64,000 nt of DNA from Myxococcales bacterium (GTDB lineage Bacteria; Myxococcota; B64-G9). The stretch spans positions 1 through 64,000 of the forward strand of contig JAAZNF010000009.1 of assembly GCA_012798435.1 (NCBI GenBank), given 5' to 3'. The notes beneath the pieces were generated by a model, which was not told where the DNA came from, made no database searches, and saw only the letters and a list, made by a program, of their open reading frames with translations. The translations under genes were made by a program, and so were the position numbers. Shown one piece after another: positions 7,725 through 33,774 of this stretch; position 1 is the stretch's first letter, and the number at the start of each line of letters is the position of its first letter.

Positions 7725-9193
7725 CGCCCCGTCACCTCACGGCGCTGCTCATGCTGTGCCTCGGTGGGGCGGACTGCGCGGACATCGAGGACGGGCGGTT
7801 CACCTTGTTGCTCACCCCGCCACACCTCGGGCGCAATCAGAGCGATGATCCGTTCGCATTGGTGGCGCGGCTCTCGGTGGGGTTGCTCGACTCGTGGGGG
7901 AACTACACGTCTCTCGGAGAGGGCGCGCCCGGTGCCCGGCTGGACCTCGGCCTCGTCGGCGCCGGCAAGGAGGGGTACTGGGCCGTCATCGGAAAGAACG
8001 ATCGCGGCCGGCCGGTTTCGGCCGGGATGGGAGCCCCGTCCCGCATCGACAGCGGAGAGCGGCGCGTCCTGGCGGTGCCATTTTTCCCCTTGGCGCTGGC
8101 CCCCATGAGCCGGCTGCTCCCAGGAGAGGAGGAGCAGGCCAATCCCTTCCAGGGCCGCCGCCCGTCTCTGCGTCTGACCGAGGTCAACCTGGAGAGCGGC
8201 AATCTCAAGAACGCTGGCGATCTCCAGTGCTTCGTCACCGCGCTGTGGTCCGATTCGGACCTGTGGTTCGAGATCTCGGTCGCCGATGACCAGGCGACCT
8301 TGGCGGGAGCGGGGCTCCCGCTCATGCAGGGCGACGCGGTGCGGCTGTACCTGGACGGGATGCGGGACGGGCCCGGCGGTGCCGGCGACATGATCCTCAC
8401 CGTGTCGGCCGATGGGCGGATGGATCCGGAGGGCCTGGCGTCGCTCCTGTCCGCGGAGACGCTGAACGGAGGTTACCGGCTGCGCCTGCGGTTGCCGTTC
8501 GCCGCTCCGGCGAAGAACGTGCCGGTGGGCTTCGATCTCCGCGTCATCGACTTCGACGGGGTGGAAGCGCCCGCTCGTCTCACCTGGGCTTTCGATCCCA
8601 GACAGCCCGAGGACGATCCTCAACCGGGCGAATACGGAAGCCTGGTCCCGGAGGTGCCGCTGTTGCCGGCGCTCGCTGAAGCACAAGACGTGGCGCGCTT
8701 TGACGGCTCCGAAGGCCCGGTGGCGGCTTCCGTCGCGTACCTCTCAGACCGTTTGTTGTTCTCCATCGAGGTCCCGGACGGCGAGGTCCTCACCGCGCCG
8801 CAGGATCCGGACCTGGCCGGAAGCGATCGGGTGGAGATCCTGATCGACCTCGCCAACGGCCGGCCCCCCATTCCGGAGAGCACGCGCTTCTACTCTCTGG
8901 CCGTTGGCGCCGGCGGTTCGACCCGCGCGCGTGCCGGTTCGGATCCGACGCAGCTTTCTCCAGACGGGGTCCGCTATACCGGTCGGGCCAGCGGGACCGT
9001 CGTCAGCGGCGGCTATCGCGTCCAGGCGGAGATCCCGTTTGAAGATCTGCAAATCGCGCCGCAAGCGGGCTGGTTCTTGGGCCTCGACGTTCGGATCGCG
9101 GACGAGGACGCGGGTTCGAGCGGCGAGCGGCGTTGGTCGCAGAGCCCGGATCCTGGCAAGTGGCCCGAACTGCGGCTGTGGCACCGGGAGTGA
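7721..9193 (+). CDS. Exported protein with two CBM9-like beta-sandwich domains, 490 aa
   Basis: The start overlaps the upstream stop (ATGA), so it is translationally coupled to the Cys-rich gene. An N-terminal signal (about 1-20, ALLMLCLGG) suggests export. Two regions, about 150-300 and 325-488, have the pattern of family 9 carbohydrate-binding-like modules: strands such as LWFEISVAD and LLFSIEVPD, followed by DAVRLYLDG and DRVEILIDL, then GYRLRLRLPF and GYRVQAEIPF, and a closing WPELRLWH. These folds bind sugars or simply serve as surface scaffolds. No catalytic residues are evident. A carbohydrate-binding or adhesion role is inferred. Confidence 0.75.
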   Translation: MTPRHLTALLMLCLGGADCADIEDGRFTLLLTPPHLGRNQSDDPFALVARLSVGLLDSWGNYTSLGEGAPGARLDLGLVGAGKEGYWAVIGKNDRGRPVSAGMGAPSRIDSGERRVLAVPFFPLALAPMSRLLPGEEEQANPFQGRRPSLRLTEVNLESGNLKNAGDLQCFVTALWSDSDLWFEISVADDQATLAGAGLPLMQGDAVRLYLDGMRDGPGGAGDMILTVSADGRMDPEGLASLLSAETLNGGYRLRLRLPFAAPAKNVPVGFDLRVIDFDGVEAPARLTWAFDPRQPEDDPQPGEYGSLVPEVPLLPALAEAQDVARFDGSEGPVAASVAYLSDRLLFSIEVPDGEVLTAPQDPDLAGSDRVEILIDLANGRPPIPESTRFYSLAVGAGGSTRARAGSDPTQLSPDGVRYTGRASGTVVSGGYRVQAEIPFEDLQIAPQAGWFLGLDVRIADEDAGSSGERRWSQSPDPGKWPELRLWHRE

Positions 9194-9196
9194 CCC

Positions 9197-10426
9197 GTGA
9201 ACACGCTCTTGTTCTCTTTTATGGTCATCGTGGCCGCCCCGCCCGTGGCCTGGCTGGACCTCAGCCCGGAGGACCCGGCCTGGGTGGATCAAGATCGCAC
9301 AGCGCGCGAGGAGTTCGAAAAACAGCTTCGCCTCGCCACCGCCGGGGGGCTGCTCGACTCCAGACAGGCGGGGGATTACTTCCGCGAAGCGCCACCGCCG
9401 GGCGTCGATTCGCTGCTGACCAGCGCGCGCGAGGACCTTCAAAGGGGGCGAGAGTTTCAGGAGCAGCTCAAGCCCGATCGCGCCATCCAGCATTTGCAGG
9501 CGGCGCTCAAGACCCTGCGCGGGATGGGCGCGGCGCTTTCGGATCTGACATTGTTGGAGGAGGCTCACTTTCTCCTGGGGACGACCTACCAGTCGCTGGG
9601 AAAGAACGCCTCCGCCGACGAGCAATACCGCATGGTCCTCCTGCTCCGGCCCGATCGGGTGCTGGATGAAGCCGAGGTGAACCCGCTGGTCGTGGAGCGG
9701 TTCGAGCTCGTGCGCCAGAACCTCTCGGCCGCGCTGCCGGGTTCCATTTCCGTGATCTCGCAACCGCCCAGTGGGCGAGTGACCCTCGACGGCCGGCCCG
9801 TGGGCCGGACGCCGCTGACCCTGTCGGGTGTGCTCCCCGGCGAGCACTACCTTTCTCTCGAGCTGGACGGGTACCGCTCCTGGTTCGGGCTGGTCCAGGT
9901 AGCCTCCGGCGGCCTGGAGAAGAAGGAGATCTACCCCGAGGAGGGCGCGCGGATCGAGCGCGTGCGCCTTCGCAACCGCCTGCGCGACGCGGGCGCGATA
10001 AACGCTCCCCTCGCGGACGCCCAGGCGCTGTGCCAGGGGTTGGGTGTCGACTGGCTGGTGCTGACGCGTCTTACTCGCCGGGAGGGTCAGACGTACATCG
10101 AGGCGGGGATTTATTCCCGCACCCAGGAGGAAGTCGGCCGGTTGGGGCCTTATCCGGCGACTCGCAAGGCGCTCTCGGAGGCCACCCAGAATATCGCCGC
10201 CTGGATGCGCGGTGAGCGGCCGCAGCAGATCGTGATCAAACCGCCGGAGCTCCCGTTGGATCGGCCGCCACCGGTGCCGCCTCCTTCTCCTCCCGCGGGC
10301 ACACCCTGGTACCGCACGTGGTGGTTCTGGACCGCCGTGGGCGGCGTCGCGCTGAGCGCCGCGGCCGTGACCACCGGACTTTTGCTTTCACGCGACCAGG
10401 GAGTGCGGGTCGAAGTGCTGCGTTGA
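9197..10426 (+). CDS. TPR and PEGA domain protein with C-terminal membrane anchor, 409 aa
   Basis: The start is GTG, with GGGAG overlapping the upstream stop region, three bases after that gene. A short N-terminal hydrophobic segment acts as signal. Residues about 75-175 are helical and TPR-like (AIQHLQAALKTL, HFLLGTTYQSLGKNASADEQYR). Residues about 180-250 form a PEGA domain (SISVISQPPSGRVTLDGRPVG, then TPLTLSGVLPGEHYLSLELDGY). A Pro-rich linker at about 345-372 leads to a membrane helix at about 378-398. PEGA domains occur in surface and kinase proteins of delta-proteobacteria. It probably helps assemble or sense the surface proteins encoded by the same operon. Confidence 0.8.
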   Translation: MNTLLFSFMVIVAAPPVAWLDLSPEDPAWVDQDRTAREEFEKQLRLATAGGLLDSRQAGDYFREAPPPGVDSLLTSAREDLQRGREFQEQLKPDRAIQHLQAALKTLRGMGAALSDLTLLEEAHFLLGTTYQSLGKNASADEQYRMVLLLRPDRVLDEAEVNPLVVERFELVRQNLSAALPGSISVISQPPSGRVTLDGRPVGRTPLTLSGVLPGEHYLSLELDGYRSWFGLVQVASGGLEKKEIYPEEGARIERVRLRNRLRDAGAINAPLADAQALCQGLGVDWLVLTRLTRREGQTYIEAGIYSRTQEEVGRLGPYPATRKALSEATQNIAAWMRGERPQQIVIKPPELPLDRPPPVPPPSPPAGTPWYRTWWFWTAVGGVALSAAAVTTGLLLSRDQGVRVEVLR

Positions 10427-27790: not shown

Positions 27791-29323
27791 CTATTCCGCC
27801 AGCATGACGATCATGGTGTACGAGAACGGCAGCGAGGCCGCCGACTGGACCTCGAGGTAGTAATCCGCCGGCTGCTTGCTCTCGACCATCACCATCACCG
27901 AACCCTCGTTCTCCATGATGGCGTCGGGGATTTCCGAGAGTCTCGAGTCGAGGCAGCGTACGGTGAGCTTTCCCTGTTGCGGCGGGTAGGCCACGGCCGC
28001 GAAGAAGCCCTTGCCCACGTCGTCGTGGATGCGGTACCAGTCCGGATCAGACGGGCACAGGGTCGCGATGTACGGCGCGGTCGGGCTGGGGTGCTCGATG
28101 AGCGTGGCCGCGCGGGACTGGTCGTTCTCCTCGAACTGGTCGTCGCTGCACTGGGGCGGATCGACGCACCCCTGCCCGGGGTCACACACCTGCGGCGCGG
28201 CGCAGCCGGTGTCGTTCGGAGCGTGGCGGCACTCGTCGCTCTCGGCGTGGCAGGTGTCGTCGGTGCAACCGATGCCGTCGCTGCAGGCCGGCGGCGCGCC
28301 GTTCTGGCAGGCGTTCTGCTGGCACTTCTCGGCTCCGTTGCAGAAGCGCTCGTCGTCGCAGTCCGAATCCTGGTGGCAGCAACCCGGGACGGCGGGGAAG
28401 ACGCACAGGCCGTTCTTGCACTCCTCGGCGGTGCATGGATCCTGGTCGGCGCACTCGGTGACACCAGAGCAGTGGATGGCTCGGATGCAGCCCTGGGACG
28501 GGTCGCAGATGTGTTCGGCGGCGCAGCGCGAGTCGTCGGGGCGGTGATCGCAATGGTCCGTATTCTCGTTGCAGCTATCGAAGGTGCAGTCCTGGTTGTC
28601 CGCGCAAGATACGGCGGTGCCGGGGCGGCAGCGGTTGTTCTGGCACCTCTCGGCGCCGTTGCAGAAGAGGCCGTCGTCGCAGTTCTTGTCGCTTACGCAG
28701 GGCAGGTTGCAGTACGGCAGCGAGGTGCACAGGTGCTCGCAGCAGCGGTTGCCTGTCCCGCAGTCCGTATCGACGTCGCAGGTGCCCGGGCAGCGGGGGA
28801 GGGAGAGGCACTGGTGGTCGCAGCACACCTGGCCGGCGGCGCAGTCCGCCGGGGTATTGCAGATGCCCCCCACCCGGCAGTCGAGGAACACCTCGGGATC
28901 GATGCCCGGCTGGTCGGAGGGAAACTCGGTGTCCGGGTGCGTCTCCTGCTTGCCGTCGGGGCAGGTCACCACGGTCTGGCCGCCGCTGCGGCGCACCCGG
29001 TAGGTCTGGCCAGCGGACTGGATGACGATGTCCTGTCCGTCGTGGGAGAGGGAGAAGCAGGTTTCGCCGCCGGCGCCCTTGGCCTCGAAGACGGCGAGGC
29101 CCACGGGCCCGGCCACCGAGGCGCCGCTCGGCCAGGTCACGGTGACCTGGCCCTGGTTGTCGGCCACCAGCAGGCACTCGCCGCTGGCCCCCAGGCAATC
29201 GTACGGGCCGCGCAGGCAGCTCGGCCCGGGCGTGTCGTTCGAGGCGCCGCTGCAACGAACCAACGAAAAAACCAGCAGGCAGCATCCCGTGAGCTTGAGC
29301 GAGAGTTTCGGCAGGATCCGCAT
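27791..29323 (-). CDS. Exported Cys-rich repeat protein with PPC-like C-terminal domain, 510 aa
   Basis: A surface protein typical of Myxococcota. An export signal ends around Cys24 (FSLVRC), which could be lipid-modified although the lipobox is atypical. Residues about 145-400 hold tandem Cys-rich units: CVSDKNCDDGLFCNGAERCQ and a later near-copy around CHQDSDCDDERFCNGAEKCQ, each followed by CTxDxC and a DPxQGC closing piece. The last 110 residues (FEENDQSRAATLI, CPSDPDWYRIHDDVG, ADYYLEV) resemble the bacterial pre-peptidase C-terminal beta-sandwich. AAGGAG precedes the ATG at 29323. It lies between znuB and dxs on the same strand. Function unknown. Confidence 0.82.
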   Translation of the reverse strand: MRILPKLSLKLTGCCLLVFSLVRCSGASNDTPGPSCLRGPYDCLGASGECLLVADNQGQVTVTWPSGASVAGPVGLAVFEAKGAGGETCFSLSHDGQDIVIQSAGQTYRVRRSGGQTVVTCPDGKQETHPDTEFPSDQPGIDPEVFLDCRVGGICNTPADCAAGQVCCDHQCLSLPRCPGTCDVDTDCGTGNRCCEHLCTSLPYCNLPCVSDKNCDDGLFCNGAERCQNNRCRPGTAVSCADNQDCTFDSCNENTDHCDHRPDDSRCAAEHICDPSQGCIRAIHCSGVTECADQDPCTAEECKNGLCVFPAVPGCCHQDSDCDDERFCNGAEKCQQNACQNGAPPACSDGIGCTDDTCHAESDECRHAPNDTGCAAPQVCDPGQGCVDPPQCSDDQFEENDQSRAATLIEHPSPTAPYIATLCPSDPDWYRIHDDVGKGFFAAVAYPPQQGKLTVRCLDSRLSEIPDAIMENEGSVMVMVESKQPADYYLEVQSAASLPFSYTMIVMLAE

Positions 29324-29367
29324 GGCCTCACTCCTTCCCCGGGCTCTTGGGCAGCCCTCTCGGCTTC

Positions 29368-29386
29368 GGCGCTCCATGCTAGCGCC
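29368..29386. repeat. Short inverted repeat after znuB
   Basis: GGCGCT (29368-29373) and AGCGCC (29381-29386) can form a six-base-pair hairpin between the znuB stop and the next minus-strand start. There is no T-tract; it may be a weak terminator. Confidence 0.3.
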
Positions 29387-29408
29387 AGGAGTCAGGCAAT
29401 TCAACGCC

Positions 29409-30263
29409 CTAGGGCTCGTTGGCGCGGCGGCCCAACAGCGCCAGCGCGAGCGAGAGCAGGGCGCACAGCAGCACCATGCTGGCGCCCGTGGGGAGCTCCA
29501 GCACGAAGGAGAGGTAGTACCCGCCCGCGGCCGCCACCACCCCGACCAGGGCCGAGAGGAAGAAAGCGGCCCGCATGGTCCGCGCCAGCCGCAGCGCTCC
29601 CAGCGCCGGCAGGATGGCGAAGCCGAAGGCCGGCAACGCGCCGATGGCCCGGGTGGCGACCGAGATCATGAGGGCCATGGAGCCGACGAGCAGCGCCTCG
29701 TGCGAGAAGCGCCGCAGCCCGGCCGCGCCGGCCGCGTCGGGGTCGAACGAGACGAACAGGAAGCGCCGGTACAACAGCGCGTGAACGATGGCGACCAGCA
29801 GACCGGCGGCGAGCAGGTACGCCACCTGCTGCGTCTCCACCAGCACCGCGCTGCCGAACAGCACTCCGCTCACGTCGTGCAGATCCTGGCGGATGAACCC
29901 GCCCAGCAACAGCACCGCCGCTGCGGACACCAGGTAGGCCACCGCCACGCCGTTCGTGGACTCGCGCCGCGCGCGGGCGAAGACCGCGGCCGCGCCCAGG
30001 GAAAACAGCAGCGAGAACCAGGCAGGGTCGCAGAAGAACTCCGCCGCGGGGTGCTCTCCCAGCGTCGCATCCAACACGTCGTGCAACAAGAAGGCGGCGA
30101 TCACCCCGGCGGAGGAGACCTGTGTGAGCGCCAGCGGTACGTACACCATGCGCTTCAACACCACCCACACGCCGAGGAATCCTAACGCTGCTCCGGAAAT
30201 GACCGCGGCGGCCACCGCGTCGCGCCACAGGGTGAAGTTTTCGAAGAACCCGGCGTCGTTCAT
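29409..30263 (-). CDS. znuB: Metal ABC transporter permease, ZnuB/MntB family, 284 aa
   Basis: The inner-membrane channel of a zinc- or manganese-type importer. About eight hydrophobic segments are visible across the protein (for example AVAAAVISGAALGFLGVWVVL, VAYLVSAAAVLLLGGF, LLAAGLLVAIVHALLY, FFLSALVGVVAAAGGYYL). The family features VLKRMVYVPLALTQVSSAG and the ALPAFGFAILPALGALRLAR coupling region are present. Its ATG overlaps the stop of the ATPase gene by four bases. Metal specificity cannot be read from the permease; zinc is inferred from the cluster. Confidence 0.88.
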   Translation of the reverse strand: MNDAGFFENFTLWRDAVAAAVISGAALGFLGVWVVLKRMVYVPLALTQVSSAGVIAAFLLHDVLDATLGEHPAAEFFCDPAWFSLLFSLGAAAVFARARRESTNGVAVAYLVSAAAVLLLGGFIRQDLHDVSGVLFGSAVLVETQQVAYLLAAGLLVAIVHALLYRRFLFVSFDPDAAGAAGLRRFSHEALLVGSMALMISVATRAIGALPAFGFAILPALGALRLARTMRAAFFLSALVGVVAAAGGYYLSFVLELPTGASMVLLCALLSLALALLGRRANEP

Positions 30264-31018
30264 GGCTCCTCCGAGAAGACGTCGATGTGGACGCGCCCGT
30301 TGCACTCGTGAGCGTGGACACGCCGGCCGTAGAGCCGCGTCAGCTTCTCCGCTTGCATGAGCTCGTCGCGCGGGCCGGTTTCGAACAAGCCGGTGCGGTG
30401 GTTGATGAGGCACAGGCGGTTCGCCACCGAGGCCACGTCGTCCAGGTGGTGGCTGATGAGCAGGATTCCCATGCGGCGCTCGCGGTCGAGGCCTCGCAGG
30501 AAGGTGAGTACGTCGGCGCCGCCCGAAAGGTCCATTCCCTCACTGGGCTCGTCGAGCACCAGCACGTCGGGGTCCGCGGCCAGCACGCGCGCGATGAGCA
30601 CGCGTTGCTGCTGGCCGCCCGACAGGTTGCGAAACATTCGCCCCGCCAGATCGGAGAGGCCGAGCCGAGAAAACTCCTCCTCCACCCGTCGCCGATCCGC
30701 CGCCCGCGGCCGGCCGAACCGGCCCCAGTCGGCCGTCCGACCCATGAGCGCCACCTCGAAGGCGGACAGCGGGTAGTCCGGGTTGAGACGGTGGCGCTGC
30801 GGCGCGTAGGCGCAGCGGATGCCACCCTGCTTCAGGCGCTGGCCCCGCAGCGGGGGCAGCAGCCCGAGCAGGGTCTTGGCCAAGGTGGTCTTGCCCGAGC
30901 CGTTGGGCCCGACCACGCCCCACAAGTCACCGCGTGCAAGCGAGAACGACAGCGGGCCCAGGAGCTTCTTCCGGTAACCGAGTTCGGCATTCTCCAGGGT
31001 GATGAGAGTCTGTTCCAC
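30260..31018 (-). CDS. znuC: Metal ABC transporter ATP-binding protein, ZnuC family, about 252 aa
   Basis: Energises metal import. Walker A GPNGSGKTT, Q-loop YAPQRHR, signature LSGGQQQRV, Walker B VLVLDEPSEGMD and the switch His in LLISHHLDD are all intact. I chose the GTG at 31018 because GGAGGTGAC stands just upstream at normal distance; a GTG one codon earlier and an ATG at 31054 are alternatives. The C-terminus (VHAHECNGRVHIDVF) contains several His residues. The stop overlaps the permease start, which implies coupled translation. Confidence 0.9.
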   Translation of the reverse strand: MEQTLITLENAELGYRKKLLGPLSFSLARGDLWGVVGPNGSGKTTLAKTLLGLLPPLRGQRLKQGGIRCAYAPQRHRLNPDYPLSAFEVALMGRTADWGRFGRPRAADRRRVEEEFSRLGLSDLAGRMFRNLSGGQQQRVLIARVLAADPDVLVLDEPSEGMDLSGGADVLTFLRGLDRERRMGILLISHHLDDVASVANRLCLINHRTGLFETGPRDELMQAEKLTRLYGRRVHAHECNGRVHIDVFSEEP

Positions 31019-31081
31019 CACGTCACCTCCATGTGTGAATCGTGGATTTCGCAACTCCTCGCCACACTCTCCCGCCGACGC

Positions 31082-31987
31082 TCACTCTGACGGCGCGGTC
31101 AGGAGTTTCACGATGCGCTCGAACTTGTCTTCCACGGTGCGAACGTCCGGCGCGGCACCGACCATGGAGGGGAGCTTCACCAGCCGCGCCCCGGCCTTAT
31201 CGGCGAAGAGCCGCGACAGCCGGTCCGGGAAGTACACCTCCTGGATGACGAAGCGGACATTGCGATCGCGCACCGTCTGTAGAAGCTTCCCTACGTGTGC
31301 GGGAGACGGCGGGATGCCGGGTTTCGGCTCCAGCGCCCCGGCCGACTCCCAGCCGGCCCAGCCGAGCAGGTAGACCCAGCTCCTGTGGTACTCCACCACT
31401 CGGGTGCCACCTTGAGCGGCGAAGGCGGCCTTCCACTCGGCGAGCTTGCGCTCGTAGCGGGTCGCGAATTCCATCCAGCGTCGCTCGATCTCGGCCCGGC
31501 CCTCGGGATCGAGCTCGAGGAGTTTTTTATAGATGCCCTCGGCCACGGCGCGCATGGCGGCGGGGGATGTGTAGTAGTGCGGGTTGCCGGCGGCGTGCAC
31601 ATCGCCGAGGGCGCGGTCCGCCACCGTGGGCACGTCCTCGGGCTGGATGAACATGGATGCGTCGAGGTAGCCCGCCCCGCCGGGCTGGATGGCGGCGTTT
31701 CGCGATTGCGCAAGCAACGCCGGCAGCCAGCCCACTTCCAGGCCCATCCCGATGCAGATCAAGAGGTCCGCCGTGTTGAGCCTCAGCACATGGGAGGGCT
31801 TGGGATCCACGAAGTGCGGGTCCTCGGTGCCCTGGATGAGCGAGCTGGCCTCGACGCGCTCCCCGCCGATCTCGGTGGCGATGGCGGCGAAGTCGGGCAG
31901 CGTGCCGACCACGCGGACCTTGGCCGCGACGGGCGCGGGCATGACATGAATCAAACCGAACAGGGACAAGAGGAGAGGAAGACGCAT
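31082..31987 (-). CDS. znuA: Periplasmic metal-binding protein of the ZnuA/TroA family, 301 aa
   Basis: Captures Zn(II) or Mn(II) in the periplasm and hands it to ZnuBC. A signal peptide covers about 1-22. Likely ligands are His58 (EDPHFVD), His137 (GNPHYY) and His201 (EYHRSW), with an acidic residue later (QEVYFPDR). The His/Asp-rich flexible loop found in many zinc-specific ZnuA proteins is absent between His58 and His137. AGGAGG overlaps the upstream stop, nine bases from the outer-membrane barrel gene. The cluster suggests zinc, but manganese or iron cannot be ruled out. Confidence 0.88.
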   Translation of the reverse strand: MRLPLLLSLFGLIHVMPAPVAAKVRVVGTLPDFAAIATEIGGERVEASSLIQGTEDPHFVDPKPSHVLRLNTADLLICIGMGLEVGWLPALLAQSRNAAIQPGGAGYLDASMFIQPEDVPTVADRALGDVHAAGNPHYYTSPAAMRAVAEGIYKKLLELDPEGRAEIERRWMEFATRYERKLAEWKAAFAAQGGTRVVEYHRSWVYLLGWAGWESAGALEPKPGIPPSPAHVGKLLQTVRDRNVRFVIQEVYFPDRLSRLFADKAGARLVKLPSMVGAAPDVRTVEDKFERIVKLLTAPSE

Positions 31988-31996
31988 GGCCGCCTC

Positions 31997-33214
31997 CTAG
32001 AACTTGTGCGCGCCGTGCTCGCCGGCGCTGACTTCCGCCTGGAGAAACACCGCAAACCCCGTCTCGCCGCCCCGCTCGCGCCCGATGTCCGCCTGGAGCC
32101 GCAGCTTGGAAAAATGCGTGGGCATGAAGGTCGCCACCAGGCCGCCGCGCCAGGCCCAGCCGCCGCCGGCTGGCGCCGCGTCTCCCATTCGCAGATCGTC
32201 GACGTTCTCGAGACGCAGGCCGACCATCCAGCGCCGGTCGAGCTGGGCGTCGAGCTGGGCATACCCTCCGTGGTCCCACAGCGCGCTGTCGCGATCCGGC
32301 GCGCGGCGCAGCATGGCCTCCAGCGTGAGCGAGAGGGCCAGGTCGCCTTCCCCCGAAGAGATGGGCCGCCACTTCAGGTAGAGGTCGGTGCCGAACAGGG
32401 CGGCCCGGCCGGTCAGCTCGGGCGCCTCGGGGTTCCAGACGCGTCCCAGCGCGCTGCTCACGCCCCACAAGAGCGACCAGTTCGCGGAGAGCTCGAAGAA
32501 GTTCTCCATTCTTCCCACGAACACCAGATCGGCCGGGGACTCCAACCGGCCGGCCTCACTGTTTTCGATCACCCCGAAGGTGCTGGACATGAAGCTGATT
32601 TCTTCAGATGGCATCAGCGCCTGCGCCGCCAGGGTGAGGTACCAGGGCAGGGGCAGGAGCCACGAAAGCTCCGCCCCCGCGCCGCGAAAGTGCGCCTCGC
32701 CCATGAAACGCACGTGAGATAGCGGCGGGTTGACGAACGTCCACTGGTGCAAATGGCGTGGGTTGAAGCGGCCGAAGATGGCGTTCATGATGCCGGCGCG
32801 GGCTTGGAGCGACAAGGGCAAGCTCAGCGTGGTGAGGAACGCCTCTTCGATCACGGCCTCGGTGAGCTGAAAGTAAAGGTCGAAGCGGAAGTACGGATCG
32901 ACGTTGGCCGTGGCGGCGAGCTCTACACCCTGGACGGCAAAACCGTTGTCGCCGATGCCGTGTTCGCTCTGCTCGAGGTGCTCGGCGCTGGAGAACCACC
33001 CCAGGCCTGCGGTCAGGATGATGGAGAGGTCGGGGTTCATCTTGGGCATGGGAGAGCCGCGTGCCGGTGCCGGGGCTGAAAGAGTTGCGGCCGCCTGGTC
33101 TTCGGCGATGGCCTTCTCGAACTCGGCAGCCGCGTCAACCTGGCCCGCAGCGGCGATCGGAAACAGAAGAAGCATCGACAGAGGAAACAAAGTCCAACTT
33201 CGGACGTGTCGCAT
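31997..33214 (-). CDS. Outer-membrane beta-barrel protein in the metal-uptake operon, 405 aa
   Basis: A signal peptide (about 1-24) precedes a low-complexity Ala-rich segment (to about 55) and then a barrel-like region with many amphipathic strands ending in aromatic residues (YFRFDLYFQL, YLTLAAQAL, LYLKWRP, KLRLQADIG). There is no TonB box or plug domain, so it is not a standard TonB receptor; about 16 strands would fit its length. It carries HLHQW and ends in HGAHKF, which could bind metal. GAGGAG precedes the ATG. It likely passes metal across the outer membrane for ZnuABC, an inference from position. Confidence 0.78.
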   Translation of the reverse strand: MRHVRSWTLFPLSMLLLFPIAAAGQVDAAAEFEKAIAEDQAAATLSAPAPARGSPMPKMNPDLSIILTAGLGWFSSAEHLEQSEHGIGDNGFAVQGVELAATANVDPYFRFDLYFQLTEAVIEEAFLTTLSLPLSLQARAGIMNAIFGRFNPRHLHQWTFVNPPLSHVRFMGEAHFRGAGAELSWLLPLPWYLTLAAQALMPSEEISFMSSTFGVIENSEAGRLESPADLVFVGRMENFFELSANWSLLWGVSSALGRVWNPEAPELTGRAALFGTDLYLKWRPISSGEGDLALSLTLEAMLRRAPDRDSALWDHGGYAQLDAQLDRRWMVGLRLENVDDLRMGDAAPAGGGWAWRGGLVATFMPTHFSKLRLQADIGRERGGETGFAVFLQAEVSAGEHGAHKF

Positions 33215-33289
33215 GGCAATTCTCCTCGTGTGGCGTGCCGCGAGAGTTCGTGTGTGCGGCGCGCCAGGTTGTCGGATGACTTGAGCTGC

Positions 33290-33733
33290 TCAGCGAGGAG
33301 AGGGCGGAGAGTGCTTGGGGTAAAGCAGGTACAGGCGTTCCTGGGCCAGGAGGAACGGCGAATCCGAAGTGGGCAGTAATGCTATCTCGGCCAGGGCGCA
33401 ATCGGGCGGAGGCGTCAGACGCGCCCAGGCTGCGCGCGGATTGACGAAGTGCCCGGCCTCGCAGCGGTGCATCCCATCAAGACAGGTGGGGCAGGAGCGC
33501 TCGCAGATCGCGTCGCTTTCTTTGTGCAACGAGACGCGAGAGTGAGCGTGGTGCGCGGCGTGGATCAACTCGCCGTTTCCCGTCAACCGGTGGGTGGTGC
33601 ACACGAAGTGGGCGAGATCGAGCAAGCCGACGGCGCACCACACGAAAAGACCAAGCGAAGCGAGCGCGAACGAACTTCGCCGCCCGAGAGGCGCCGCTGC
33701 GTGTGTGTGTGCCGGTCGGGCCATCGACGTCAT
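33290..33733 (-). CDS. Small His-rich membrane protein heading the metal-uptake operon, about 147 aa
   Basis: One clear membrane segment near the N-terminus (SFALASLGLFVWCAVGLLDLAHFV) is followed by a His- and Cys-rich part: HAAHHAHSRVSLHKESD, then CERSCPTCLDGMHRCEAGH, which has a CxxxCPxC pair plus His residues. The C-terminal third is ordinary. It resembles small DUF2946-like metal-linked membrane proteins, without firm assignment. The start is uncertain: ATG at 33733, ATG at 33724 or TTG at 33760, none with a good ribosome site. It lies 75 bases before the barrel gene on the same strand. A metal-binding or sensing role is inferred. Confidence 0.6.
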   Translation of the reverse strand: MTSMARPAHTHAAAPLGRRSSFALASLGLFVWCAVGLLDLAHFVCTTHRLTGNGELIHAAHHAHSRVSLHKESDAICERSCPTCLDGMHRCEAGHFVNPRAAWARLTPPPDCALAEIALLPTSDSPFLLAQERLYLLYPKHSPPSPR

Positions 33734-33754
33734 CTTGTGGGTGGGGGTGCTCGT

Positions 33755-33774
33755 TGTCAAGGCAGCATTTGACA
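33755..33774. promoter_or_regulatory. Inverted repeat between divergent genes (possible operator)
   Basis: TGTCAA (33755-33760) and TTGACA (33769-33774) are perfect inverted repeats with an eight-base spacer. They could be two face-to-face -35 boxes or a dimeric regulator site controlling the metal operon and the TPR gene. Confidence 0.35.

Follow-up and report, generated by a model that had tools for sequence, protein, structure and literature searches.

We analysed a stretch of 64,000 nucleotides (the window, meaning this whole stretch) from contig JAAZNF010000009.1 of a Myxococcales bacterium, described as a relative of soil myxobacteria. The operon on its minus strand at 29409-33760 carries, in the order of transcription, a small His/Cys-rich open reading frame (ORF), a gene of an outer-membrane barrel, znuA, znuC and znuB. 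We find it probable that the small ORF acts as an upstream ORF (uORF) that senses metal, arrests the ribosome when zinc is low, exposes the start of the porin gene and in this way controls porin-znuACB. The gene order is conserved; a Cys, a Pro-Pro (PP) motif and the stop codon of the uORF keep fixed distances, and the codons after the motif are complementary to the Shine-Dalgarno (SD) sequence of the barrel gene, in excess over controls, in the window and in other lineages. At the level of sequence, the Cys-PP-stop spacing together with the PP motif is the signature of a regulatory uORF of the same type as CruR and CutF, the already established copper leader ORFs. The features of the operon are as follows.

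33290-33724 (ATG start; 144 amino acids) or 33290-33760 (TTG start), minus strand: small upstream ORF with an N-terminal membrane segment, a middle part rich in Cys and His, and PKHSPP at the C-terminus; longer starts up to 33760 are possible
33599-33661, minus strand: hydrophobic N-terminal segment (signal or transmembrane) of the small ORF, placed by eye from the translation
33461-33463, minus strand: codon of Cys88 of the small ORF, a candidate metal ligand, from the invariant column in the long-form alignment and the spacing table
33302-33319, minus strand: PKHSPP codons, a candidate translation-arrest motif three residues ahead of the stop, with P136, K137, P140 and P141 invariant
33294-33301, minus strand: candidate anti-Shine-Dalgarno (anti-SD) sequence TCTCCTCG, in the codons directly after PP, from the sequence, the synonymous controls and the fold z
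33221-33228, minus strand: SD sequence of the barrel gene, CGAGGAGA, the exact complement of 33294-33301 (from the sequence)
31997-33214, minus strand: outer-membrane porin (barrel) with an OprP/OprO-like fold, from an AlphaFold model and structure comparison
31082-31987, minus strand: ZnuA-type substrate-binding protein (PF01297, E 1.6e-39)
30260-31054, minus strand: ZnuC-type ATPase (ABC_tran, E 7.1e-26)
29409-30263, minus strand: ZnuB-type permease (ABC-3, E 1.3e-30)

A preliminary description of this DNA had noted that ZnuABC-like genes are preceded by a barrel and a small His/Cys-rich ORF, which was confirmed by the gene calls, the profile matches and the plug-less barrel. It had also made its reading depend on the conservation of the barrel and the His-rich gene with znuABC, and the outcome was positive. 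The main set consisted of 115 loci (the window, 40 loci and 74 further ones) with 117 barrels, one of which is split in two. The barrel family was present in 145 of the 195 genomes of the phylum Myxococcota, and ZnuA was found just downstream on the same strand for 110 of the 117 barrels. Among the seven exceptions, L122 and L123 run into the end of a contig, and in L128 ZnuA precedes the barrel. The barrel-ZnuA pair was also seen in 77 of the 80 named records of a second set, which comes partly from the same genomes as the first. ZnuC and ZnuB are mostly next after ZnuA; for 15/117 barrels the order was C-B-barrel-A, with ZnuB or ZnuC upstream of the barrel. All rules taken together, the small ORF was present at 88/115 loci.

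Single-sequence searches with the small ORF of the window gave nothing useful, and phmmer found no counterpart in the 40 loci because the sequence drifts so fast. The family was recognised only through its C-terminal motif, on reading the ORFs upstream of the barrels. We observed that these ORFs share a plan: the N-terminus is hydrophobic, Cys/His motifs are present, and APKxSPP stands at the C-terminal end, only a short distance ahead of the stop. While the body of the protein is just 13-26% identical to the window copy, the PP motif and its distances to the Cys and to the stop are fixed. A carrier role of the small protein is disfavoured by a body that is not conserved; what has been kept is the Cys-53-PP-stop spacing and the C-terminal PP motif.

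The family exists in two forms. In the long form of ~140 amino acids the residues H45, C88, P136, K137, P140 and P141 are invariant (alignment A2). In Anaeromyxobacter-like loci this operon begins with a short form of ~87 amino acids, which has CxxC and, in most cases, PGQSPP (alignment A3). Besides APKxSPP and PGQSPP, the C-terminal variants included RGPP in L050, L058 and L059 and RAPP only in L285, a record of Oligoflexia. The pattern PKx[SG]PP followed by at most nine residues ends 63 of the 14,830 closed ORFs of at least 40 amino acids in the 115 loci, and all 63 are family members by eye. Out of eleven alternative end motifs, ten were found 0-2 times and PRxSPP was found 23 times, in the same ORFs. 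A looser rule (PP, a Cys at 48-57 and a membrane segment) identified an ORF in place at 81/115 loci compared to five matches elsewhere in 1,254 kb, four of which looked genuine.

For the spacing we selected 59 ORFs by the C-terminal motif and a generic Cys/His pattern, with no distance rule, and dropped L106 as a false pick. A Cys was located 48-57 residues before the end of PP in 58/58 ORFs; the commonest distance was 53, and the window has 54. The CxxC pairs sit at 51/48, 52/49, 53/50 or 54/51 residues before the end of PP. An analogous count of 88/88 follows in part from how the ORFs were selected, and we give it no weight. In CruR, the pair C90/C93 and the RAPP motif at 139-142 give a spacing of 53/50, and this spacing is functionally constrained, as stated in the available portion of PMC9426467.

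The distance from the uORF stop to the start of the barrel gene is 75 nt in the window and, at most other loci, 50-110 nt. The codons directly after PP are exactly complementary to the barrel SD over 8 nt in the window. As the null, the end of each uORF was recoded with synonymous codons, following the codon usage of the barrel at the same locus. The pairing score of the window was 7.92, compared to the mean of 2.34 for the controls, and 0/40 controls were as high; the fold z of the region was -2.30. Among 77 loci, 25 ranked at or below 0.05 against the synonymous controls, a few of them with near-zero pairing in both. With at least 3 nt paired, the motif region was significant in 19/76 loci, compared to 7/76 and 3/76 for two upstream control regions. 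Weighting by uORF cluster gave 9.50/26 for the motif region and 1.23/26 and 2.05/26 for the control regions. An incomplete run gave 22/78 loci for the motif region and 14/78 for the 27 nt before it. With 15 nt upstream of the motif added, fewer loci were significant (15/78).

Judged by raw duplex energy, the motif and SD of the same locus did not pair better than cross-locus pairs (-13.5 vs -13.4 kcal/mol). This measure is uninformative because the genomes are GC-rich, and the signal is seen only against the synonymous-codon control. We also observed a bias in the motif itself: the first Pro codon was CCT in 50 of 80 uORFs (18.76/29 by cluster), compared to 165/2,376 prolines of the barrels and 56/642 in the same uORFs.

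The mechanism that we propose would work as follows. The N-terminal segment would draw the nascent chain of the small ORF to the membrane, and the ribosome would arrest at the C-terminal PKHSPP, with the Cys/His site, ~53 residues back, placed just outside the ribosome. The stalled ribosome would cover the anti-SD after the PP codons; the barrel SD would then be accessible, allowing translation of the porin and thereby of znuACB. When zinc is sufficient, it would bind the emerging Cys/His site and relieve the arrest; the ribosome would leave, the anti-SD would pair with the SD, and expression would fall. The porin would pass zinc or a small zinc complex over the outer membrane without TonB, and ZnuACB would import it.

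During the arrest of CruR the third and fourth motif codons occupy the P and A sites, according to the accessible part of PMC12992588. By analogy with this placement, the anti-SD of the window would lie within the footprint of the stalled ribosome. RAPP and RGPP are demonstrated arrest motifs (the same part of PMC12992588), and since RGPP and RAPP occur in the same operon position in the loci named above, the family is linked to them. Zinc as the ligand, arrest at PKxSPP, the direction of the switch and the cargo of the porin are what we infer beyond this point.

Among the known leader ORFs, CruR of Bordetella pertussis (DUF2946) is similar in heading a metal-import operon with an outer-membrane protein as the first structural gene, in having an exported N-terminus, and in a Cys site that lies 53/50 residues ahead of the last Pro of a C-terminal motif near the stop. 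It differs in its metal, copper, in its TonB-dependent transporter, in RAPP compared to APKxSPP here, and in the use of Rho with a 162-bp gap (PMC9426467, in the portion available). The window ORF thus shares the Cys at a fixed distance and has PKHSPP in place of RAPP. DUF2946 (PF11162) gave no match for the window ORF; family members reached only E 0.03-0.3 (1/39 long-form and 3/21 short-form sequences), the best values of 0.032 (A2) and 0.061 (A3) missing the cut-off.

CutF of Rhodobacter capsulatus is likewise a small exported Cys protein with a proline-rich C-terminus, and there the SD of the following gene is masked by a stem-loop. Its downstream gene is a copper-induced multicopper oxidase, unlike the porin here, and the neighbours of CutF-like genes are Cu genes and HupE/UreJ. 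These statements come from the accessible sections of PMC9973294, which describe 29 CutF-like clusters; a term search of its main text, as far as available, found no zinc, ZnuA or Myxococcota. The CutF-like class is defined by fewer than 150 amino acids, a signal or transmembrane segment, PP in the last 15 residues, and a same-strand neighbour less than 1,000 nt downstream. The window ORF has this layout, with 144 amino acids, PP three residues from the end and the barrel start 75 nt on. The RAPP/RGPP arrest peptides resemble the present family in carrying a C-terminal motif in small secretory uORFs, with TonB- and Cu-related groups (PMC12992588 and PMC10987492, in the parts available), and differ from it in that most members here carry PKxSPP or PGQSPP, candidate arrest motifs. 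A literature search of partial coverage turned up no zinc nascent-chain sensor.

The metal would be zinc, judging from the ligands of ZnuA, the nearest curated families, which are zinc importers, and the CobW neighbours of paralogs of the uORF. The window ZnuA is the sole PF01297 gene detected in its genome, and its ligands H58, H137 and H201 are invariant across the aligned rows. The best NCBIfam matches were AztC for ZnuA, AztA for ZnuC and AztB for ZnuB, all far below the equivalog cut-offs. The system resembles the AztABC/ZnuABC importers in these matches and in the three invariant His; it differs from them in the low scores, in the missing His-rich loop of ZnuA, and in having a porin and a leader ORF of its own.

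The absence of the usual His-rich loop from ZnuA, as described earlier, was borne out: the window protein has two His between H58 and H137, and one to three were counted in 108 of the 121 aligned rows, namely the 108 that span the segment. The accompanying idea that the His-rich function had moved from ZnuA to the small protein was rejected. The loop is missing throughout the set, also at loci that have no small ORF, and its absence calls for no replacement.

The window barrel alone matched no family in Pfam or NCBIfam, and single-sequence searches, as well as a search of the PDB by sequence with the barrel profile, gave nothing useful. Its AlphaFold model (predicted local distance difference test, pLDDT, 83) was closest to OprP and OprO, with VIA Z of 29.1 and 29.0 compared to 23.9 for the next porin; the best match aligned 305 residues with a root-mean-square deviation of 2.7. 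The sequence profile of OprP/OprO (PF07396) was not matched by the window barrel, and the best of the three matches among 39 relatives had E 0.0015, although the fold does match. The 39 relatives gave weak matches to BBP2 (PF07642; 13), Porin_O_P (PF07396; 3) and LbtU (NF033652; 5). The likeness to OprP/OprO, BBP2 and the LbtU siderophore porin thus consists of the fold (Z 29 to OprP/OprO) and these matches of relatives; the scores are weak, and the window barrel itself matches none of the profiles.

No plug domain of a TonB-dependent receptor was found in the window barrel by profile search or in the model, and a TonB-barrel match was seen in 1/39 relatives, at E 0.065. With no plug, the TonB-free reading stands. 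Of the TonB-independent route across the envelope that had been suggested, one part holds, since a non-TonB barrel conserved with znuABC fits such a route; a takeover of ZnuA's His-rich function by the small protein is not supported. His154 of the barrel is invariant and His156 nearly so; both are in the long loop after strand 5, and the C-terminal His400 and His403 are conserved columns as well. In 16-strand porins loop L3 follows strand 5, and the His154/His156 loop may form a metal eyelet. The part of PMC13098993 available reports that a porin plays an accessory part in the zinc homeostasis of mycobacteria, and in principle a zinc porin therefore has a precedent.

The long-form profile of the uORF matched 116/195 genomes, often in two or more places, and the short-form profile matched 37/195. 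The genome of the window has a second copy, L175, on contig 12 (104698-105105, minus strand), which ends in APKHSPP plus five residues and heads OEP and HlyD genes of resistance-nodulation-division (RND) efflux. By eye, its SPP codons TCT CCT CCG resemble an anti-SD for its OEP gene. The L193 paralog also heads an OEP gene. The L180 paralog, a Myxococcaceae-type copy, heads a CobW/COG0523 GTPase gene (Pfam), and L176, L178, L181 and L182, which are of this type too, do the same by layout. CobW (COG0523) proteins are often linked to zinc. Other paralogs are located ahead of TonB-dependent receptors (L183, L184, L186, L192, L199, L200, L203 and L204).

These observations suggest a broader reading, to which we give a little less than even weight: Myxococcota would have a broad family of nascent-chain metal sensors with arrest at PKxSPP, distinct by profile from DUF2946, that control zinc import as well as CobW, RND-efflux and TonB-receptor operons, and in several lineages the arrest codons, together with those that follow them, would double as the anti-SD of the next gene, a single short stretch serving both to brake the peptide and to switch the RNA. 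This would be the first translational zinc sensor of such a kind.

We considered three other explanations of the operon. The small protein could be a stable zinc chaperone, rich in His and Cys, that sits in the membrane or the periplasm and passes metal from the porin to ZnuA. Its composition, its N-terminal membrane segment and its conservation beside the porin and znuA would support this. Yet its body drifts while the PP motif and the Cys and stop distances are fixed, Anaeromyxobacter-like loci have the ~87-residue form in its place, paralogs are found ahead of efflux, CobW and TonB genes, and the choice of synonymous codons is biased where the ORF ends; we consider a chaperone quite improbable. 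The barrel, in turn, could serve another solute, phosphate or a chelate, and stand beside znuABC for some purpose unrelated to the entry of zinc. That its best folds are the phosphate-selective porins OprP/OprO would agree with this, but a shared porin fold tells little of the cargo, and both the adjacency of ZnuA (110/117) and the His residues kept in the loop that follows strand 5 make another cargo unlikely.

The third explanation keeps the regulatory uORF and replaces the anti-SD hairpin with metal-promoted arrest, as in CutF, or Rho-dependent attenuation, as in CruR. CutF uses metal-promoted stalling with a stem-loop and CruR uses Rho with a gap of 162 bp, according to the parts of their reports available (PMC9973294 and PMC9426467); Myxococcaceae-type loci show no anti-SD pairing, and some paralogs head efflux genes, where metal should switch expression on. 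On the other hand, SD and anti-SD pair more than in synonymous controls, both in the window and in several lineages, and most gaps between stop and start measure 50-110 nt. We regard this version as somewhat unlikely.

Several observations weigh against a zinc-responsive arrest coupled to anti-SD release. The largest uORF cluster (32 loci, Myxococcaceae type) has no motif-SD pairing (mean 0.0), and thus the anti-SD part is not universal. At 27/115 loci we found a barrel and no uORF by the rules used, although a few of the 27 lack upstream sequence; these loci include genomes from the same family as the window's, G001, G007 and G008 (L033, L069 and L062). In the window's own uORF the first Pro codon is CCG, not CCT, and this copy is without the first cysteine of the family's HxxC..H. 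PKxSPP is without the Arg of RAPP, and RSPP is only partly permissive, as reported in the available part of PMC12992588. For the efflux paralog L175 the direction of control would need to be reversed. The assignment of zinc rests on neighbours; PF01297 includes importers of Mn too, and some paralogs stand ahead of TonB and efflux genes.

Control of zinc import in bacteria is mostly repression by Zur. The genome of the window has one FUR-family gene, which may be a Zur; it is located on another contig and is unlinked to the operon. The part of PMC545781 available describes, for three genomes, znuABC operons of delta-proteobacteria for which neither Zur nor a Zur site could be detected. If the zinc-sensing uORF is correct, it could explain delta-type znuABC operons where neither the regulator nor its site is found, and zinc would be read while the nascent chain emerges from the ribosome, at the membrane or past it. 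The principle of CruR and CutF would then not be tied to copper. Such a sensor would also offer a fixed design rule that can be searched for (a ligand ~53 residues before PP) and a testable partner for a TonB-free zinc porin.

Some additional features of the loci were observed. Two paralogs, in L038 (13144-13593, minus strand) and L206 (7584-8054, minus strand), are located several kb off the zinc operon on the opposite strand, and the genes following them have no Pfam match. In total, six ORFs after paralogs (in L185, L187, L179, two in L206, and that of the L038 paralog) had no Pfam match. Some of the TonB-dependent receptors after paralogs carry TonB_C fused at the N-terminus, and an ExbB gene is nearby in L188. 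In L038, a lipoprotein-like gene of ~300 amino acids with no Pfam match (8705-9601, plus strand) is located between znuA and znuC, and a gap about as large occurs at this position in many Myxococcaceae-type loci. The record titled Comamonas sp. KCTC 72670 (L233) has a Myxococcus-like barrel and leader ORF, and its name looks wrong or mixed. Just 3' of znuB in the window (27791-29404, minus strand) is a gene of a large secreted Cys-rich protein with repeats of the DCxxGxxCC type, which is outside the conserved unit as far as examined.

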